The notes under the pieces were generated by a model. That model made no database searches. It was not told the origin of the DNA and saw only the letters and a program-made list of their open reading frames with translations. Positions 15,518-45,045 of a DNA stretch of 60,699 nt are shown here, in pieces. The DNA is from Caenispirillum bisanense (GTDB taxonomy: Bacteria > Pseudomonadota > Alphaproteobacteria > Rhodospirillales > UBA2165): assembly GCA_945877815.1 (NCBI GenBank), contig CAMDWJ010000025.1:1-60699 (forward strand). Reading direction: 5' to 3'. The position numbers were made by a program, and so were the translations under genes. Position 1 is the stretch's first letter; each line of letters opens with the position of its first letter.

Positions 15518-15529
15518 ACAAGAAGCGCC

Positions 15530-15557
15530 GTCATGCGCGGACTTGGTCCGCGCATCC
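15530..15557. repeat. REP-like palindrome (left half of a composite)
   Basis: The arms ATGCGCGGAC (15533-15542) and GTCCGCGCAT (15546-15555) pair perfectly over a 3-base loop, inside the GTCAT...ATCC frame seen again at 43.9 and 51.2 kb. A second palindrome half (GATGGCCGGATCAAGCC, up to 15603) follows after a short spacer and is cut by the 267-bp element; its other half (CGGCCATGAC) resumes after 15880. Confidence 0.75.
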
Positions 15558-15603
15558 AGCTTTACATCGCGCATTCGGAAAGATGGATGGCCGGATCAAG
15601 CCT

Positions 15604-15870
15604 ACTGCTGTCCAGTTTAAAATGGTTCGAACCGGAACAAAGCCTTCCTCTGCTTATATTTTTGCATAATAGAACCGGCTGAGACTCGAACTCCGAAAAT
15701 AGGTTCGCCATGGCCGTATTTGCTACGGCCACCCCCGAATCGGCCATCGGATCTTGCAGGGCAAAACTGAGTATCCGCGCTCCAACGGTCTTTTCGCGCT
15801 ATTGCGCTTTCGACCGTGGATGCCCGTAACAAATACGTGCATGACGGCTTAATTTAAACCGCACAGCAGT
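15604..15870 (-). mobile_element. 267-bp non-autonomous element with terminal inverted repeats, copy A
   Basis: The ends ACTGCTGTCCAGTTTAAA and TTTAAACCGCACAGCAGT are inverted repeats with two mismatches. Read on the minus strand the unit aligns without any indel to copy B (43894-44160, plus strand); I count about 21 substitutions, so roughly 92% identity. It carries no transposase gene. It sits between the two halves of a REP-like palindrome and shows no convincing target duplication. By structure it is a MITE; which transposase would move it is unknown. Confidence 0.8.
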
Positions 15871-15921
15871 GGGCGTGACTCGGCCATGACGGCTATGTTT
15901 TGATTTCGGTCGTAGGGCCGC

Positions 15922-25256: not shown

Positions 25257-25399
25257 GGTCAGCCCGGCTTACCCGATTCTAAGCGCGAGCGGCAATCTCG
25301 ATATTGAGGCGACCGGAGGACCTCCGGTATCGACCGGAGGGCGGGTGCCTGCCTCGCCCCTTCCCTCGCGAGGCTAGGCGCACTATATTCACAGGGTCG
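25257..25399. promoter_or_regulatory. thyX/ssrA divergent promoter region with hairpin
   Basis: A perfect inverted repeat ACCGGAGG/CCTCCGGT (one base between) lies at about 25313-25329. Further right a TATATT (25384-25389) with a weak TTCCCT 17 bases upstream could be the ssrA promoter. The assignments are by eye and low in certainty. Confidence 0.35.
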
Positions 25400-25735
25400 G
25401 GAAACCGACTATGGCGATAAACGCTTTGTGGAATAAGCGTTACGGACCCGGGGGCAGTGCCCGGCGCCTCCACCAACTCTTAGATTTCCGCACAAATGCG
25501 GGGATTTTATGGGGGCGAAACAGGATCGACGTGCGTAGTAAAGGCATGGTTTTCGCTCGGCATGATACCGCCGTTATCGGGTCACTTTTACAAATGCCAA
25601 CGACAACGAGGCATTTGCTGTCGCAGCCTAACGGCTAAGACAACGGGGTTCGGGGGGCACCTGGCAACAGAAGCCCCCCACTTATCTATCTCCGGCACGG
25701 GGTGGTCCCTGCGCCGGAAGCGGACCCAAAAGATC
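25400..25735 (+). ncRNA. ssrA: tmRNA, circularly permuted two-piece form
   Basis: tmRNA rescues stalled ribosomes and tags the nascent protein for degradation. The 3' acceptor piece comes first: a T-arm-like hairpin in GGACCCGGGGGCAGTGCCCG, the acceptor strand GCGCCTCC and the CCA at 25473-25475. After an intervening loop the 5' piece starts with GGGGGCG (25511-25517), which pairs with CGCCTCC (one G-U), followed by the conserved GGATCGACG. The tag frame runs from GCC at 25596 to TAA at 25629-25631 and reads ANDNEAFAVAA, with an alanine-rich VAA end. Pseudoknot-like stems follow (GGGGGGC...GCCCCCC). Outer ends are approximate. The gene precedes sspB by about 40 bases. Confidence 0.93.
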
Positions 25736-28656: not shown

Positions 28657-30204
28657 CTATTTCCAAACGTAATCTGTCACACTGGTTTCCCCGGCCATGT
28701 AGGGGTTGTCCATGATCCTGACGTCCTTCGTGTGAACGTAGGCGTTCGGGATGCTTGACAATGGATAGAGGTACGACTTGCGGTTTACCATGTCATAGGC
28801 TTGGTGATAGATCGTCGCCCGTTTCTTTTCGTCGAACTCCGCCAGCCCGTCGGAAAGAAGTCGTTTCAGATCCTCGTCGCCGTAATACTGGTCGAAGTGG
28901 CCGAGAATCAGCGTGTCCAGATTGTTTGACGCATCAGGGAATCCGCCCGTAGGAAACACCGTGGACCAAGCGTTCAACTTACCTTCAACCTGCTCCTTGC
29001 GGTAGACACTGAGCGGTACCGGACGAACGCTCGCACGAATGCCCGCCTTGAGTAGCGAACCAGCTATTGCCTCGGCGATCGCGCGGTGCGGCGCGGTCAC
29101 CGTATAGGTGTACTCAATGCCGTTCGGATACCCGGCCTCGGCCAGAAGCTTCTTCGCACCCTCGGGGTCGAACTTCGGCAGGTGCACGGTCGGCTTGCAG
29201 TCTGGCGTCGTCGTTTTAAAGCATAAGGCTTGGCTCATTTCAGCAACCTTAACGCCGCCCGGCACGATGTACTTCACGATGGATTCGCGATCGATCGCCA
29301 TCCACAAGGCGCGACGGACGCGCTCGTCGCCGAACACGTTGATCCCGCTTTTGCCCCGCACGTCGAATCCTAAGTAGAAAAGGTTCAGGACTGCGGAATA
29401 GGTCACATCTAGTTTCGGATTACCTTCCAGTTCGCGTGTGTCGTCGGGCGACGCATTGCGGATCATGTCGATCCCGCCGGTCACCAACTGGGCGATCTGC
29501 GTCTGGCGGTCAGGAATCGGCACGCCGTGCACGCGCTTCATTCCGGCGCGAAAATAAGTCTTGTCGCCGTGATACTTGTCGATGCTTTCGACGACGACCC
29601 CCTTGTTCTTGTCCAGAACCGCCACTTTCATCGGCCCGGTACCGATCGGCGTGAGGCGGCCGTAATCGTCGCGGTCCGCGTGCTTTGCCATCGTTTCGGC
29701 ATCGAAGAAGAAGTAGCGATAGGCGAGATTCGCCATATCCGTCGCAATTGGCTCCAAGAAAACGATGCGCACCTTGTACGGGCCAAGCTTTTCGGCCTTC
29801 TCGATCATCATGAAGCGTTGCTTGAAGTTGATCTGCGACACCGGGTCCTTGAGATAGTTCACCATATTGACGACGTCGTCGGCATCGAACGCATTGCCGT
29901 TATGGAAGACCACGCCTTCGCACAATTCGAACTCCAGTGTCCGCGGATCGATCCGAGCCCACGACTTGGCAAGCGACGGCACCCATTTCTTGTTGCGCTC
30001 GTCGAAGACGAGAAGGGTTTCGTATACGCCGCGACTGAAATTCGACGCCTCGTCGCCGCCACCCTGGTAAGGCGACAAGATGACGAACGGATCGTTGAGG
30101 CCGAGCCGCAGCGTATCTTTCGATTTCTGCGCGCCAGCCGGTGCCGCCCAGGCAAAAACCGCCGCCGTCGCGCAAGCCAAACCCAGCCGAATTGTGCGGT
30201 GCAT
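28657..30204 (-). CDS. ABC transporter substrate-binding protein, peptide/nickel type (SBP_bac_5), orphan
   Basis: The start at 30204 is preferred: GGGGAG ends right before the first ATG and lies six bases before this one. The 515-residue precursor has a Sec signal peptide (LACATAAVFAWAAPAGA-QKSKD) and the cluster C fold: LRLGLNDPFVILSPYQGG, the mid-protein segment LARDGT-type loop FELCEGVVFHNGNAFDADDVV, and RRALWMAIDRESIVKYIVPGG. No lipobox, so it is periplasmic. No permease or ATPase gene is near; such orphan SBPs either share a transporter or act alone. It is the first gene of the MarR-linked operon. Confidence 0.9.
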   Translation of the reverse strand: MHRTIRLGLACATAAVFAWAAPAGAQKSKDTLRLGLNDPFVILSPYQGGGDEASNFSRGVYETLLVFDERNKKWVPSLAKSWARIDPRTLEFELCEGVVFHNGNAFDADDVVNMVNYLKDPVSQINFKQRFMMIEKAEKLGPYKVRIVFLEPIATDMANLAYRYFFFDAETMAKHADRDDYGRLTPIGTGPMKVAVLDKNKGVVVESIDKYHGDKTYFRAGMKRVHGVPIPDRQTQIAQLVTGGIDMIRNASPDDTRELEGNPKLDVTYSAVLNLFYLGFDVRGKSGINVFGDERVRRALWMAIDRESIVKYIVPGGVKVAEMSQALCFKTTTPDCKPTVHLPKFDPEGAKKLLAEAGYPNGIEYTYTVTAPHRAIAEAIAGSLLKAGIRASVRPVPLSVYRKEQVEGKLNAWSTVFPTGGFPDASNNLDTLILGHFDQYYGDEDLKRLLSDGLAEFDEKKRATIYHQAYDMVNRKSYLYPLSSIPNAYVHTKDVRIMDNPYMAGETSVTDYVWK

Positions 30205-35879: not shown

Positions 35880-37418
35880 CTATTTCCAATTCAGATTATG
35901 CAAGCCGACGCCGAACACGTCGTACGACTTCTGCGGCGCGATACGTACGCTGCTCGAATGCAAGAACACGACCGGGATCGGGGCGACCGGCATGACGTAA
36001 GCCATATCCGTAACGCGGTCCATGACCTCGCGGACCGCCGCTTTGCGTTTGGTCTCGTCGACCACGGTCAGCCCAACATCGGACAAGGCATGCAGTTTCT
36101 CGTCGCGCAGATAATCGAGCGATCCTGGATCGAAAAAGAAATTGAGGGTTCGCGCAACATCCGGACCGCCGCCGGCGCTCCATCCCGTGATCAACGCATT
36201 GACGACACCGTCGGTCTGTTTGGCATGAAATGCGGCTTGGCTGACCGAATCCAACGTGGCGCGCACCCCGATCTTGCGCAATTGCCCGACGACGACCTCG
36301 GCCATGTCCTTAACGGTGTTGGTGGCAGTGATCTTGATGTCGAACCCATCAGGATACCCTGCTTCGGCCAACAACTTCTTCGCCGCGGCCGGATCGTGCG
36401 CGGGCGGCTTATGCGTATAGACGCATCCGTCCTGGAAATCCCAACACAGGGCGTCGGGCGTACCCCAAGGAAGCTCGTGCTGTCCGGCGCGGATGCGATA
36501 AACCTCGTCGCGATTGATCGCCATCATCAAAGCGCGGCGGACGCGCGTATCCTGTACGGGTTTCAATCCACTGCGTCCGGCGGCATCGAACATCAGATAG
36601 ATGTAGGACAGACTCTGGGTGAGCGTCATCGCATGCTTCGGGTCTTTGGCGAGATCCTCCGCTTGATCCAATTGCGCGTTGCGCAAAAGTTCGAGATCGC
36701 CGCGAATGAAATGCGCAACCTGTGTGCCCTTGTCGGGAACGGGCAACGCCTCGACACGGCCGATATTGCTTGCCGGTTTCGCATCTCCGCCGTGCCGATA
36801 ACTTGCATTCTTGACGAGGACGGCGCCCACATTGCGGTCCATTTGCGATACGCTATACATGCTCGTCCCGACCGGTTTGGTCCCGAAGGATTCCTTGTCT
36901 TCCAACGTGCTGAGGATATGTTCGGGAAAGACCGGCGTCGCGTAAGCAAAGGTTTCTAGGAAATTCGGCGTCGGCGTTTTCGCCGTGATCCGAATTTTAT
37001 GGCTGCCCAGTTTTTCGACCGCGGCGATAAAATCCCAATTGGCGCGTCGGCGCAGCTTGGTTTTCGGATTGAGAATCCAGGCGAGCATATAGGCCACGTC
37101 GTCGGCATCGAACGCCTGCCCGTCGTGCCATCGAACGTTTTCGCGCAACTCGAATTCCAGCGTTCGATCGTCGACCAGCTTGAACGACTTGGCGAGCAGC
37201 GGGCCGTAGCGCCGCGTCTCTTCGTTGTACGAGAGCACATTGTCGAAAATACCGTTCGATAGAAAAAGCGTCTCCGCACCTCCGCTCAGATAAGGCGCCA
37301 CGGTCTGTGTGGCCTCCAAAAAGGCCACGCGCAGCCGATCCTGGGACTTCTGAGCAAGCGCCGAACCCGAAGCAACCATCGCCGCGCACGCAGCGATACA
37401 ATGCAGAGCTATTTTCAT
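35880..37418 (-). CDS. ABC transporter substrate-binding protein (SBP_bac_5), orphan
   Basis: The 512-residue precursor has a signal peptide (LHCIAACAAMVASGSALA-QKS) and the cluster C layout with FELRENVRWHDGQAFDADDVAYML, the RRALMMAINRDEVYRIRAG helix, and PAAAKKLLAEAGYPDGFDI near the last third. It is distantly paralogous to the protein at 28657-30204, sharing the same landmark segments. No permease or ATPase gene is near. The strong GGGAAGG is five bases before the ATG. It follows the Rieske oxygenase gene by 31 bases on the same strand, so the two are probably one operon that pairs uptake with oxidation. Confidence 0.9.
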   Translation of the reverse strand: MKIALHCIAACAAMVASGSALAQKSQDRLRVAFLEATQTVAPYLSGGAETLFLSNGIFDNVLSYNEETRRYGPLLAKSFKLVDDRTLEFELRENVRWHDGQAFDADDVAYMLAWILNPKTKLRRRANWDFIAAVEKLGSHKIRITAKTPTPNFLETFAYATPVFPEHILSTLEDKESFGTKPVGTSMYSVSQMDRNVGAVLVKNASYRHGGDAKPASNIGRVEALPVPDKGTQVAHFIRGDLELLRNAQLDQAEDLAKDPKHAMTLTQSLSYIYLMFDAAGRSGLKPVQDTRVRRALMMAINRDEVYRIRAGQHELPWGTPDALCWDFQDGCVYTHKPPAHDPAAAKKLLAEAGYPDGFDIKITATNTVKDMAEVVVGQLRKIGVRATLDSVSQAAFHAKQTDGVVNALITGWSAGGGPDVARTLNFFFDPGSLDYLRDEKLHALSDVGLTVVDETKRKAAVREVMDRVTDMAYVMPVAPIPVVFLHSSSVRIAPQKSYDVFGVGLHNLNWK

Positions 37419-42473: not shown

Positions 42474-43787
42474 ATGACCACGGCAGCGGAAAACGCCATT
42501 CTCACCCAGACCGGACCCGGGACGCCACTCGGCGAGCTGATGCGCCAATATTGGATTCCCGCCGCCAAGTCGTCCGAACTCAAAGCCGACGGCGATCCCG
42601 TCCGCCTGCTTCTGATGAGCGAGCAGCTGATCGCGTTCCGCGACAACAACGGCCGCGTCGGCATCATGGATCACCGCTGCCCGCACCGCTGCGCCTCGCT
42701 GTTTTTCGGGCGCAACGAAGAAGGCGGCATCCGCTGCGTCTATCACGGCTGGAAATTCGACGCCGACGGCAATTGTCTCGACATGGCGAACGTGCCGCCG
42801 CACCAAGATTTCAAGAACAAGGTTCATGCCAAGGCCTACAAGACGGCTGAGCGCAACGGCATCGTGTGGGTCTATATGGGCAAGCAGCAAGATGCGCCGC
42901 CGCCGATGCCGGAGCTTGAATCCAGCCTCGTGCCTGAAGAGGACATGCAGATCCTATTCATCCAGCGCGAATGCAATTGGCTGCAAGGCACCGAAGGCGA
43001 GCTCGACACCTCGCATCTGGGGTTCTTGCATTTCGGTTCGGTGAAGAAGGACGCCTATATCGAAGGCGCGATGGAACAGCACGTCGTCGAGAACCGCGCA
43101 CCCGAATATATGTACAAGGAGACCGACTACGGCACCATGTACGCGGCCTATCGTCCGGCCGGTCCGGGCGAGACCTATTGGCGCCAAGGCCACTTCCTGT
43201 GGCCGATGTGGACCATGCCGCCGATCTGCAATATCGACAACAACATCCTGCTGCGCGGCTATGTGCCGATGGACGACACCCACACCATGATGGTGTACCT
43301 CATGCACAAGGATGCGGAACTTCCCGGCCGCCGCACCGCGCGCATGGATATCGTCGGCCAGGGCGGCTGGAACTTCGTGCCGAACACGACCGATTGGTAC
43401 GGACGCTTCCGTCTCTCCGATCACAAGGGCAATGATTACAACATCGACCGCGAGGTGCAACGCACGCAAAGCTACACGGGCATCAACGGCATCAACCTGC
43501 AAGATCAGGCTGTGGCCGAAAGCATGGGCGAAATCGTCGATCGCACCGAGGAGCATCTGGCGCCAAGCGATCAGATGATCACGCGCACGCGCCGCCATAT
43601 CGTGAAGGCCGCGCAAGCCTATGCGAAGGACGGAACCTTGCCAAAAAGCGCGCTCGATCCGTCGGTCTATCGCAGCGTGCGCGGCGGCCAGTTCGTCACC
43701 CAGGAAGGCGCCGATTGGGTCGAGAGCTACCAGCACAAGATCGCCACCGCGCCCCTCAAGGCGCCCGTGCAGATGGCGGCGGAATAG
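42474..43787 (+). CDS. Rieske 2Fe-2S aromatic ring-hydroxylating dioxygenase alpha subunit
   Basis: The 437-residue protein has the Rieske ligands C69-P-H71 (HRCPHRCASLFF) and C88-x2-H91 (RCVYHGWKFD), and the catalytic iron site GELDTSHLGFLHFGS (D-x2-H-x4-H). The length and the N-terminal TGPGTPLGELMRQYW match phthalate 4,5-dioxygenase-type oxygenases. It is about 65 residues longer than the oxygenase at 37450-38571 and from a related subfamily. GGAGG is five bases before the ATG. A strong terminator follows. No reductase gene is near. Confidence 0.94.
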   Translation: MTTAAENAILTQTGPGTPLGELMRQYWIPAAKSSELKADGDPVRLLLMSEQLIAFRDNNGRVGIMDHRCPHRCASLFFGRNEEGGIRCVYHGWKFDADGNCLDMANVPPHQDFKNKVHAKAYKTAERNGIVWVYMGKQQDAPPPMPELESSLVPEEDMQILFIQRECNWLQGTEGELDTSHLGFLHFGSVKKDAYIEGAMEQHVVENRAPEYMYKETDYGTMYAAYRPAGPGETYWRQGHFLWPMWTMPPICNIDNNILLRGYVPMDDTHTMMVYLMHKDAELPGRRTARMDIVGQGGWNFVPNTTDWYGRFRLSDHKGNDYNIDREVQRTQSYTGINGINLQDQAVAESMGEIVDRTEEHLAPSDQMITRTRRHIVKAAQAYAKDGTLPKSALDPSVYRSVRGGQFVTQEGADWVESYQHKIATAPLKAPVQMAAE

Positions 43788-43823
43788 TCAGGCACAGCTC
43801 GCGCAGCCGTCTTAGCGCAACTA

Positions 43824-43853
43824 AAAAGCCCGGTCATACGACCGGGCTTTTTT
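43824..43853 (+). terminator. Rho-independent terminator after the second Rieske gene
   Basis: AAAAAGCCCGGT and ACCGGGCTTTTT pair perfectly around CATACG, and the T-run continues on the 3' side. It lies about 40 bases after the stop, and its symmetrical A/T flanks make it usable in both directions. Confidence 0.92.
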
Positions 43854-43893
43854 AATCTAGCTCTCCCTCAGTCGTCATGCGCGAACTTGATCC

Positions 43894-44160
43894 ACTGCTG
43901 TCCGGTTTAAATTAAGCCGTCATGCCTGTACTTATTACGGGCATCCTCGGTCGAAAGCGTAATAGCGCGAAAAGACCGTTGGAGCGCAGATACCCAGTTT
44001 TGCCCTGCATGATCCGATGGCCGATTCGTGGATGGCCGTTACAAGTACGGCCATGACGAACCTATTTTCGGAGTTCGAGTCTCAGCCGGTTCTATCATGC
44101 AAAAATATAAGCAGAGGAAAGCTTTGTTCCGGTTCGAAAAATTTTAAACCGGACAGCAGT
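43894..44160 (+). mobile_element. 267-bp non-autonomous element with terminal inverted repeats, copy B
   Basis: The 18-bp ends ACTGCTGTCCGGTTTAAA and TTTAAACCGGACAGCAGT are a perfect inverted repeat. The unit is flanked by the direct repeat GAACTTGATCC (43883-43893 and 44161-44171), 11 bp, which reads as a target duplication. Joining the flanks restores a REP palindrome, ATGCGCG...CGCGCAT. It is the inverse copy of the element at 15604-15870. No transposase gene is inside. Confidence 0.88.
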
Positions 44161-44209
44161 GAACTTGATCCGCGCATCCATCTTTACGATGCGTCCAAAA
44201 AAAGATAGG

Positions 44210-44230
44210 TGGCCGGGTCAGGCCCGGCCA
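44210..44230. repeat. REP-like palindrome (right half of the composite at copy B)
   Basis: TGGCCGGG (44210-44217) and CCCGGCCA (44223-44230) pair around TCAGG, followed by TGAC. With the palindrome interrupted by copy B it forms the same left-right REP composite as at 15.5 kb. Confidence 0.75.
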
Positions 44231-44262
44231 TGACGGCGGAGTGTTAGCGAGGGTCGCTTTAC

Positions 44263-45045
44263 TCAATCATTCCCGTAATCGTGGTCGGGATAATTGGTCT
44301 CGCCCAACCGCCAATAGCCGCGCGTATGGACGTGGGCCGGATCGATACGGCGGTCCTTCAACAGATGCATACGAATACGGCGCATGGCATTGGCCTCGCA
44401 AGCGATCCACCAATGGGCCGATTGCGACGCACTGAGGCCCGCCACTTCCTGTTCCAGCAAAATGCCCGCCGTATTGCGGTCGCGGTGCAGCCAGCGCGGA
44501 CTGATCGACACGGTCGGGCTGAGCGCACGCTGCTCGCCGGCATCGAGGATTTCGCAGATCGCAGTGACCTTGCAAGTCTTGGGCGCGGCCTCGATGACAG
44601 TGCCGGCGCCGGGGATCGCGGTATCGTCGGCGACCACTATCATTTCGGAGGCATCTGCGGGCACATCGTAGCCGCCGCCGGGACCGCCGATGAACATCGG
44701 ATCGCCGGGTTTGGCGCTTTGCACCCAGCCGGCGGCGAGACCGTCGCCGTGCAGGACGAACTCGACCTCCAGACGCCGCGTAGCGGGATCGAAGCGGCGC
44801 GGCGTATAGGTGCGGGACGGCGGGCGCGGCGCCTCGGGGTCGGCGCGATCCCAACTCGTGCCCTTCGGCACGAACAGCAGCTTGATATGCGCGCCGGGAC
44901 GCGGCGGCGAAAATTCGGCCAACTCGTCGCCAATGAAGGTCACGCGCACGACATGCGGCGTGATCTTTTCAATCTTTTCGACGGTGGCGAGTTTCGGCGG
45001 CGGGCGTTTGCGCCGGGGGGCGCCGGCCAGTGCGGCTTCAGCCAT
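44263..45045 (-). CDS. Siderophore-interacting protein (NAD(P)H-dependent ferric-siderophore reductase, FAD)
   Basis: These flavoproteins reduce ferric siderophores to release iron in the cytoplasm. The 260-residue protein has the FAD-binding domain with SRTYTPRRFD (FAD isoalloxazine loop), then the NAD(P) part with MIVVADDTAIPGAGTVIEA, and the diagnostic C-terminal GYWRLGETNYPDHDYG. It is the last gene of the enoyl-CoA hydratase-CaiB-hydrolase operon: its ATG follows the hydrolase stop without a gap. No siderophore receptor or transporter is near, so the donor could equally serve the Rieske oxygenases; that is speculation. Confidence 0.9.
   Translation of the reverse strand: MAEAALAGAPRRKRPPPKLATVEKIEKITPHVVRVTFIGDELAEFSPPRPGAHIKLLFVPKGTSWDRADPEAPRPPSRTYTPRRFDPATRRLEVEFVLHGDGLAAGWVQSAKPGDPMFIGGPGGGYDVPADASEMIVVADDTAIPGAGTVIEAAPKTCKVTAICEILDAGEQRALSPTVSISPRWLHRDRNTAGILLEQEVAGLSASQSAHWWIACEANAMRRIRMHLLKDRRIDPAHVHTRGYWRLGETNYPDHDYGND

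Follow-up and report, generated by a model that had tools for sequence, protein, structure and literature searches.

Why does a gene-less element of 269 bp, here called copy B, lie in the centre of a REP palindrome of Caenispirillum bisanense, and what kind of enzyme placed it there? The window, that is, the whole stretch of 60,699 nucleotides that was analysed, holds copy B and a second copy of the same element, copy A. We consider it very probable that an ISRel1-type transposase, supplied from elsewhere, inserted copy B as a MITE at the dyad of a CGTC-type REP, with a 9-bp staggered cut that duplicated AACTTGATC.

Structure and Setting of Copy B

Copy B is bounded by a perfect terminal inverted repeat (TIR) of 19 bp, counting an outer C and G, without which the element would span 43894-44160, the limits that the first-pass annotation had given it (Table 1). 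It is short, has TIRs and carries no transposase gene, the longest open stretch in the family consensus being 78 codons. Copy B is thus a MITE, a transposase-less derivative of an ISRel1-type insertion sequence of the IS4 family, an assignment as strong as the joint explanation given above. The 18-base inverted repeat has four matches in the window at up to three mismatches, against 0.03 expected, and all four are ends of copies A and B.

The direct repeats that had been claimed for both ends of copy B were found as exact copies of GAACTTGATCC at 43883-43893 and 44161-44171, abutting ACTGCTGTCCGGTTTAAA...TTTAAACCGGACAGCAGT of the element. These are the only two matches to GAACTTGATCC in the window at up to one mismatch; the count itself carries no weight, because shuffled sequence gives a mean of 1.01, and the evidence lies in the exact placement of the repeat at both inverted-repeat ends.

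Each of the two copies is located between genes that converge, which for copy A are an isochorismatase-type gene and a DUF1015 gene, and neither copy breaks a coding sequence. The inverted repeat at 43823-43852 is also present in the congeneric genome discussed below and is probably the terminator of the upstream gene. A role of copy B as promoter or terminator was considered and rejected: no sigma-70-like site was detected and the one terminator-like site is the second REP at 44208-44235, although the same scan also missed the 43823-43852 repeat and is weak evidence. The single-strand fold of copy B is strong (z -7.0); its TIRs and the two REPs inside it would be expected to give such a fold, and nothing is concluded from it. 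Elsewhere, the window contains a tmRNA gene (25383-25722, tag peptide ANDNEAFAVAA) and two 117-base stretches, 29863-29979 and 37086-37202, which are 70% alike and 7.2 kb apart.

Table 1. Coordinates of copies A and B and of neighbouring features in the window.
Feature	Position	Strand	Remark
Copy A, same MITE	15603..15871	-	outer base 15603 is T, not C
Intact REP beside copy A	15529..15557	+	comparison used in the first-pass annotation
Upstream gene, Rieske-type oxygenase (Rieske, LigXa_C)	42474..43787	+	
13-bp inverted repeat, 4-nt loop, T-rich end	43823..43852	.	3' of upstream gene
Interrupted REP, left arm CGTCATGCGCG	43873..43883	+	
Target duplication, left copy AACTTGATC	43884..43892	.	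9 bp
Copy B MITE	43893..44161	+	limits set by 9-bp reading of relatives
Left terminal inverted repeat CACTGCTGTCCGGTTTAAA	43893..43911	+	
REP inside copy B	43919..43946	+	REP finder
Second REP inside copy B	44030..44057	-	REP finder
Right terminal inverted repeat	44143..44161	-	exact complement of left
Target duplication, right copy AACTTGATC	44162..44170	.	9 bp
Interrupted REP, right arm CGCGCATCC	44171..44179	+	
Second REP, opposite orientation	44208..44235	-	hairpin scan
Downstream convergent gene, siderophore-interacting-protein type	44263..45045	-	

Length of the Target Duplication

The first-pass annotation read the duplication as 11 bp, GAACTTGATCC, with the element starting at A43894. 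At copy B alone the 9-bp and 11-bp readings are indistinguishable, and an exact 11-bp repeat is seen at copy B and ten other elements (L004, L006, L087, L088, L095, L104, L108, L111, L115, and L116), that is, in 11 of 29 tabulated pairs, one of those rows being a spurious pairing in L087. The relatives argue against it. The two flanks of four elements, namely L103 (Rhodobium), L131 (Rhizobium), L109 (Hoeflea) and L036 (this genome), agree at all of the inner 9 bp and disagree at one or both outer bases, yet a C still closes the left flank and a G opens the right one; one of the two pairs in L136 is a fifth case in which the inner 9 bp are shared and the outer bases differ. Since the inner bases are shared while the outer ones are not, the C and G are part of the element. 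Nine loci of one Chitinophagales metagenome genome represent a distant relative whose CATTATTG ends likewise start with CA; it has 9-bp duplications in 9/9 copies, and ISRm16-type copies have 9 bp in four of five cases and 7 bp in the fifth (flanks read by eye for both). Published IS4Sa elements combine CA ends with direct repeats of 8–10 bp (PMC2266710 Table 1), a range that includes 9 bp; under the 9-bp reading the end CACTGCTGT also fits their pattern CA------T, with 5'-CA and T at position 9 (PMC2266710 Table 1).

The 11-bp length of the first-pass annotation is therefore not upheld by these five pairs and nine distant copies, and we regard it as improbable. Judging by these sequences, the duplication at copy B is most likely the 9 bp AACTTGATC, with the outer C and G belonging to an element that has 5'-CA ends; they look duplicated at copy B because the REP core itself has the form G...C. 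The correction matters for the alignment of junctions, as the true boundary of the element is hidden by the REP core.

REPs around and inside Copy B

Removing copy B together with one repeat leaves GTCATGCGCGAACTTGATCCGCGCATCC, which has a form like that of the intact REP GTCATGCGCGGACTTGGTCCGCGCATCC at 15530-15557, as the first-pass annotation had stated. The target was the centre of a CGTC-type REP, and, given the inverted second REP at 44208-44235, this REP was one member of a REP pair. Insertion into a REP centre, also claimed earlier, is well supported beyond this locus: 30 of the 33 TIR ends found here, and 86 of all 98, adjoin an 11-mer within two mismatches of the REP core, and the copies occupy different REPs.

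Copy B, an element that lands in REPs, itself holds a pair of CGTC-type REPs in opposite orientations. The REP-bearing segments of the MITE recur in this genome without MITE ends, and the MITE seems either to have taken up a REP pair or to be the source of some REPs. The REP finder is strict, missing the REP at 44208-44235, and was used only for listing clear REPs; none of four other MITE types (214, 279, 346, and 358 bp) passed it. By eye, the 214-, 346- and 358-bp types have REP-like or half-REP stretches, and we do not claim that REP carriage by MITEs is general.

Copies in the C. bisanense Genome

The assembly to which the window belongs (3.98 Mb, 84 contigs) was searched for copies, with the best 40 of 68 candidates being scored. 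The search gave at least 56 matches to copy B, most of them partial and many covering only the REP-bearing inner segments. At least 11, including copies A and B, are near-full, each covering at least 262 of 267 query bases; the ten other than copy B are 91–97% identical to it, and pairwise identity is 90–97%. Because no two full copies are identical, the family appears to be quiet now in this genome. The 18-base end occurs 33 times at up to three mismatches, against three for a reversed control pattern.

REP arms were seen by eye on both flanks of all 11 near-full copies, and also around the two copies of a second MITE type of 213–214 bp that has the same TIR. This second type (L036, 1501-1714; L045, 1501-1713) has an internal inverted repeat. 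In L005, the MITE adjoins a second end of the same type, with REP arms beside both.

A 9-bp repeat with at most one mismatch flanks five of the 11 near-full copies (L001, L004, L006, L007, and L011). L009 shows a 10-bp repeat when read shifted by one base, L005 has a damaged right end and was left out of the duplication scoring, and in L002, L003, L008 and L010 (copy A) the left and right flanks mismatch. With the second type included, six of 12 two-ended elements have the 9-bp repeat at up to one mismatch, L036 being the sixth, and L045 has a duplication with two mismatches. The outer arm on either side is a REP head in L002, L003 and L008, which would fit a combination of two REPs. The flanks of copy A (15585-15602 and 15871-15892) form REP-like arms, and the would-be duplicated cores mismatch. 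For ISRm22, imperfect repeats were described in 3/9 copies and recombination between copies was suggested (PMC1525189); by analogy, the mismatched flanks of the MITE copies are likely due to recombination between copies.

Position of the Ends Relative to the REP Core

For each TIR end, the 11 bases outside it were scored against GGNCTTGNNCC or GGNNCAAGNCC. The scoring covered ends with up to three mismatches, after duplicate ends and ends with fewer than 31 outside bases had been dropped. Among all 98 distinct ends, 52 have the core exactly, 79 at up to one mismatch and 86 at up to two; the background in the window is 2, 79 and 736 of 60,689 positions (0.003, 0.13, and 1.2%). The ends are not independent of each other, as both ends of an element adjoin copies of one duplication. 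The corresponding counts for this genome are 17, 26 and 30 of 33 ends, from whose flanks the core motif had been picked after viewing, which makes the other sets a fairer test. These gave 5, 13 and 13 of 15 ends in other genomes of the family; 18, 21 and 22 of 23 ends in other genomes of the order, a set that comprises loci for 18 of the 23 exact matches outside the family; and 12, 19 and 20 of 24 ends at loci of named genomes. The weakest set is that of the plasmids, with 0, 0 and 1 of three ends, namely one end of an annotated ISRel1 copy (two mismatches) and the two ends of L131, an element with a different core that nevertheless has REP-like arms.

REP targeting is not absolute, as 12 of the 98 ends lie beyond two mismatches (L013, L016, and L023 in this genome; L060, L070, L086, L112, and L117; and both ends of L103 and of L131). 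As for the arms, 21 two-ended pairs have a 9-bp duplication at up to one mismatch, two of them supplied by L136; at least six of eight arm positions are complementary in 14 of these pairs and at least seven in 10, against 3.9 and 0.4% of random window positions, respectively. The arms differ from copy to copy, different copies occupying different REPs, and most of the examined relatives with the same ends, with or without a transposase gene, lie in the same kind of hairpin.

Autonomous Relatives and the Missing Transposase

In related genomes, the start of a transposase gene is seen beside the same ends. A fragment of this transposase matched 28 loci in named genomes and 122 plasmid records, some annotated as ISRel1 or ISRm16. 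Records from Xanthobacteraceae, Bosea, Mesorhizobium, Hoeflea, and Rhizobium contain full-length elements, with about 1.27 kb between the ends and a DUF4372/DDE-type transposase, whose ends and type of target agree with those of the MITE; the ends of the MITE are thus common to full IS4 elements of named genomes. The ISRel1 transposase matches PF14294 (DUF4372), PF01609 (DDE_Tnp_1) and the NCBIfam IS4_1 model.

A search of the C. bisanense assembly for an ISRel1-type transposase gave no match with PF14294 or NF033592, and one partial match with PF01609 (67 of 200 positions). Repeated elements break assemblies, and ends near contig ends are expected from them; in the drafts of the family, a contig terminates no more than 220 bases from 14 of the 15 ends. 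The 29 end loci of this genome come no closer than about 650 bases to a contig end, and a hidden multi-copy parent element is unlikely for this reason.

Proposed Mechanism and Alternative Explanations

We propose that the parent was an ISRel1-type IS4 element with a DUF4372 + DDE_Tnp_1 transposase and 5'-CACTGCTGTCCGG ends. A full element, none being found in this assembly, would have supplied the transposase, which would recognise the matching ends of the MITE and insert it, by ordinary cut-and-paste, at the dyad axis of a CGTC-type REP. Cutting of the target strands 9 bp apart would then duplicate AACTTGATC, and the 11 bases outside the ends would typically read GGNCTTGNNCC or its complement, the REP core.

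Rather than being the target, the arms might travel with the element, the mobile unit then consisting of a REP half, the MITE and another REP half. The comparison with G001, the only congeneric genome compared, which is another species and 76–82% identical at the copy B locus, bears on both readings. Its syntenic copy B locus has the upstream gene, the inverted repeat, about 25 bases between the matched segments and the downstream gene, with neither the MITE nor a REP hairpin. Neither REP nor element was found at the L003, L009 and L045 loci, the last having a short 7-base inverted repeat that may be a decayed REP. This joint absence of REP and MITE at four loci is what travelling arms would produce. 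The L036 locus in G001, by contrast, is an intact REP pair without an element. Arms and cores also vary between copies, whereas in intact cases the duplicated core is alike on both sides of a given copy, and elements with unrelated interiors, a full insertion sequence and five MITE types of 213–358 bp, occupy the same kind of site. Travelling arms thus appear highly improbable to us, and insertion into a pre-existing REP is the reading we retain.

Across the eight loci compared in G001, one is an intact REP without element, four have neither, and three are poorly aligned or ambiguous (copy A, L004, and L008, at which no REP hairpin was seen). For the expectation of the first-pass annotation, that the empty copy B site should be an intact REP, the outcome is mixed: the L036 locus of a congeneric genome has such a REP, and at the copy B locus itself the lack of the palindrome formally contradicts the expectation. 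That locus is too divergent in G001 for a comparison of strains, and REPs evidently come and go at the between-species scale.

It might also be argued that the association of REPs with MITE ends arose through the loss of other insertions or through recombination, the transposase making no choice of target. REPs are intergenic, insertions there do little harm, and the mismatched flanks suggest that recombination happens. However, most copies, as well as full elements from several bacterial families, occupy one and the same position in the REP, and survival in intergenic DNA was rejected as the cause because it leaves the precision of the insertion point unexplained. We therefore give this explanation scarcely any credence, and the regular target points to a transposase that would itself choose the REP centre, inserting at predictable intergenic sites.

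Palindromes as Possible Targets of Other IS4 Lineages

Related lineages were viewed by eye among hand-picked, non-random copies from 60 of 345 records. All five ISRm16-type copies (L132-L135 and L140), found in rhizobial plasmids and with CAGGGCTGTCCGGGGAAA-like ends, lie in palindromes, mostly of the form CCCCGC..GCGGGG. Four of six ISAbe18-like copies from Acinetobacter (L141, L150, L151, and L154) lie in the loop of terminator-like hairpins, L153 is weakly in a palindrome and L149 is not in one; palindromy is ambiguous in one Pseudodesulfovibrio copy.

It is conceivable that the DUF4372 branch of IS4 targets the shape of a hairpin or cruciform instead of a single sequence, that is, CGTC-REPs in the ISRel1 type, the rhizobial palindromes CCCCGC..GCGGGG in the ISRm16 type and rho-independent terminators in the ISAbe18 type, and that the REP pair of the MITE plants landing sites and spreads CGTC-REPs. 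Against this count the positions of L149 and L153, the AT-rich sites used by the Chitinophagales relative and the description of insertions of ISAbe18, obtained under selection, around a promoter and a start codon (PMC8552602). We consider this extension rather unlikely, and hairpin choice by IS4 lineages a lead, not a result.

Comparison with Known Systems

One of the closest known elements is ISRel1 itself. The resolved end of its annotated copy (L130), which was compared by this one end, has the same 18 bases, and its flank is two mismatches from the REP core. L136 and L137, which are 92–96% identical to the ISRel1 transposase, have both ends of the type found in copy B, lie in REPs and have intact 9-bp duplications. 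ISRel1 and its kin differ from copy B in being about 1.27 kb long and having a transposase, against 269 bp without one.

An IS4 element that targets REPs in this way has already been published: ISRm22 of Sinorhizobium meliloti was described in REPs at the palindrome axis in 10/10 copies (PMC1525189) and placed in the IS4Sa subgroup of the IS4 family, with conserved target arms (PMC2266710). Our likening of the two systems follows the published description, in which the repeats are of 6 bp and the targets S. meliloti REPs, as opposed to 9 bp here. ISPsy8, ISPa11, ISPpu9, ISPpu10, ISRm19, IS1397 and IS621 also insert into REPs (PMC1525189), but these belong to other families (IS3, IS110) and use other REPs. 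In a literature search that covered few subscription papers, we found neither this MITE nor a preference of ISRel1-type elements for CGTC-REPs; the inverted-repeat string gave no relevant paper and DUF4372 together with IS4 gave none. Less familiar than the targeting as such are a MITE that carries two REPs and the occurrence of two related IS lineages in palindromes.

The REPs interrupted by and contained in copy B begin with CGTC and are palindromes of the kind described for CGTC-tagged REPs, which predominate in alphaproteobacteria (PMC3733652). The available text of that study leaves open how CGTC-type REPs spread and associates no transposase with them beyond a few fortuitous cases (PMC3733652). 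A MITE that lands mostly in CGTC-REPs and carries two of them offers a testable link between an IS4 transposase and the distribution of these REPs. In contrast to the published CGTC-REPs, those described here are targeted by an IS4-type family, one of whose MITEs also carries them.
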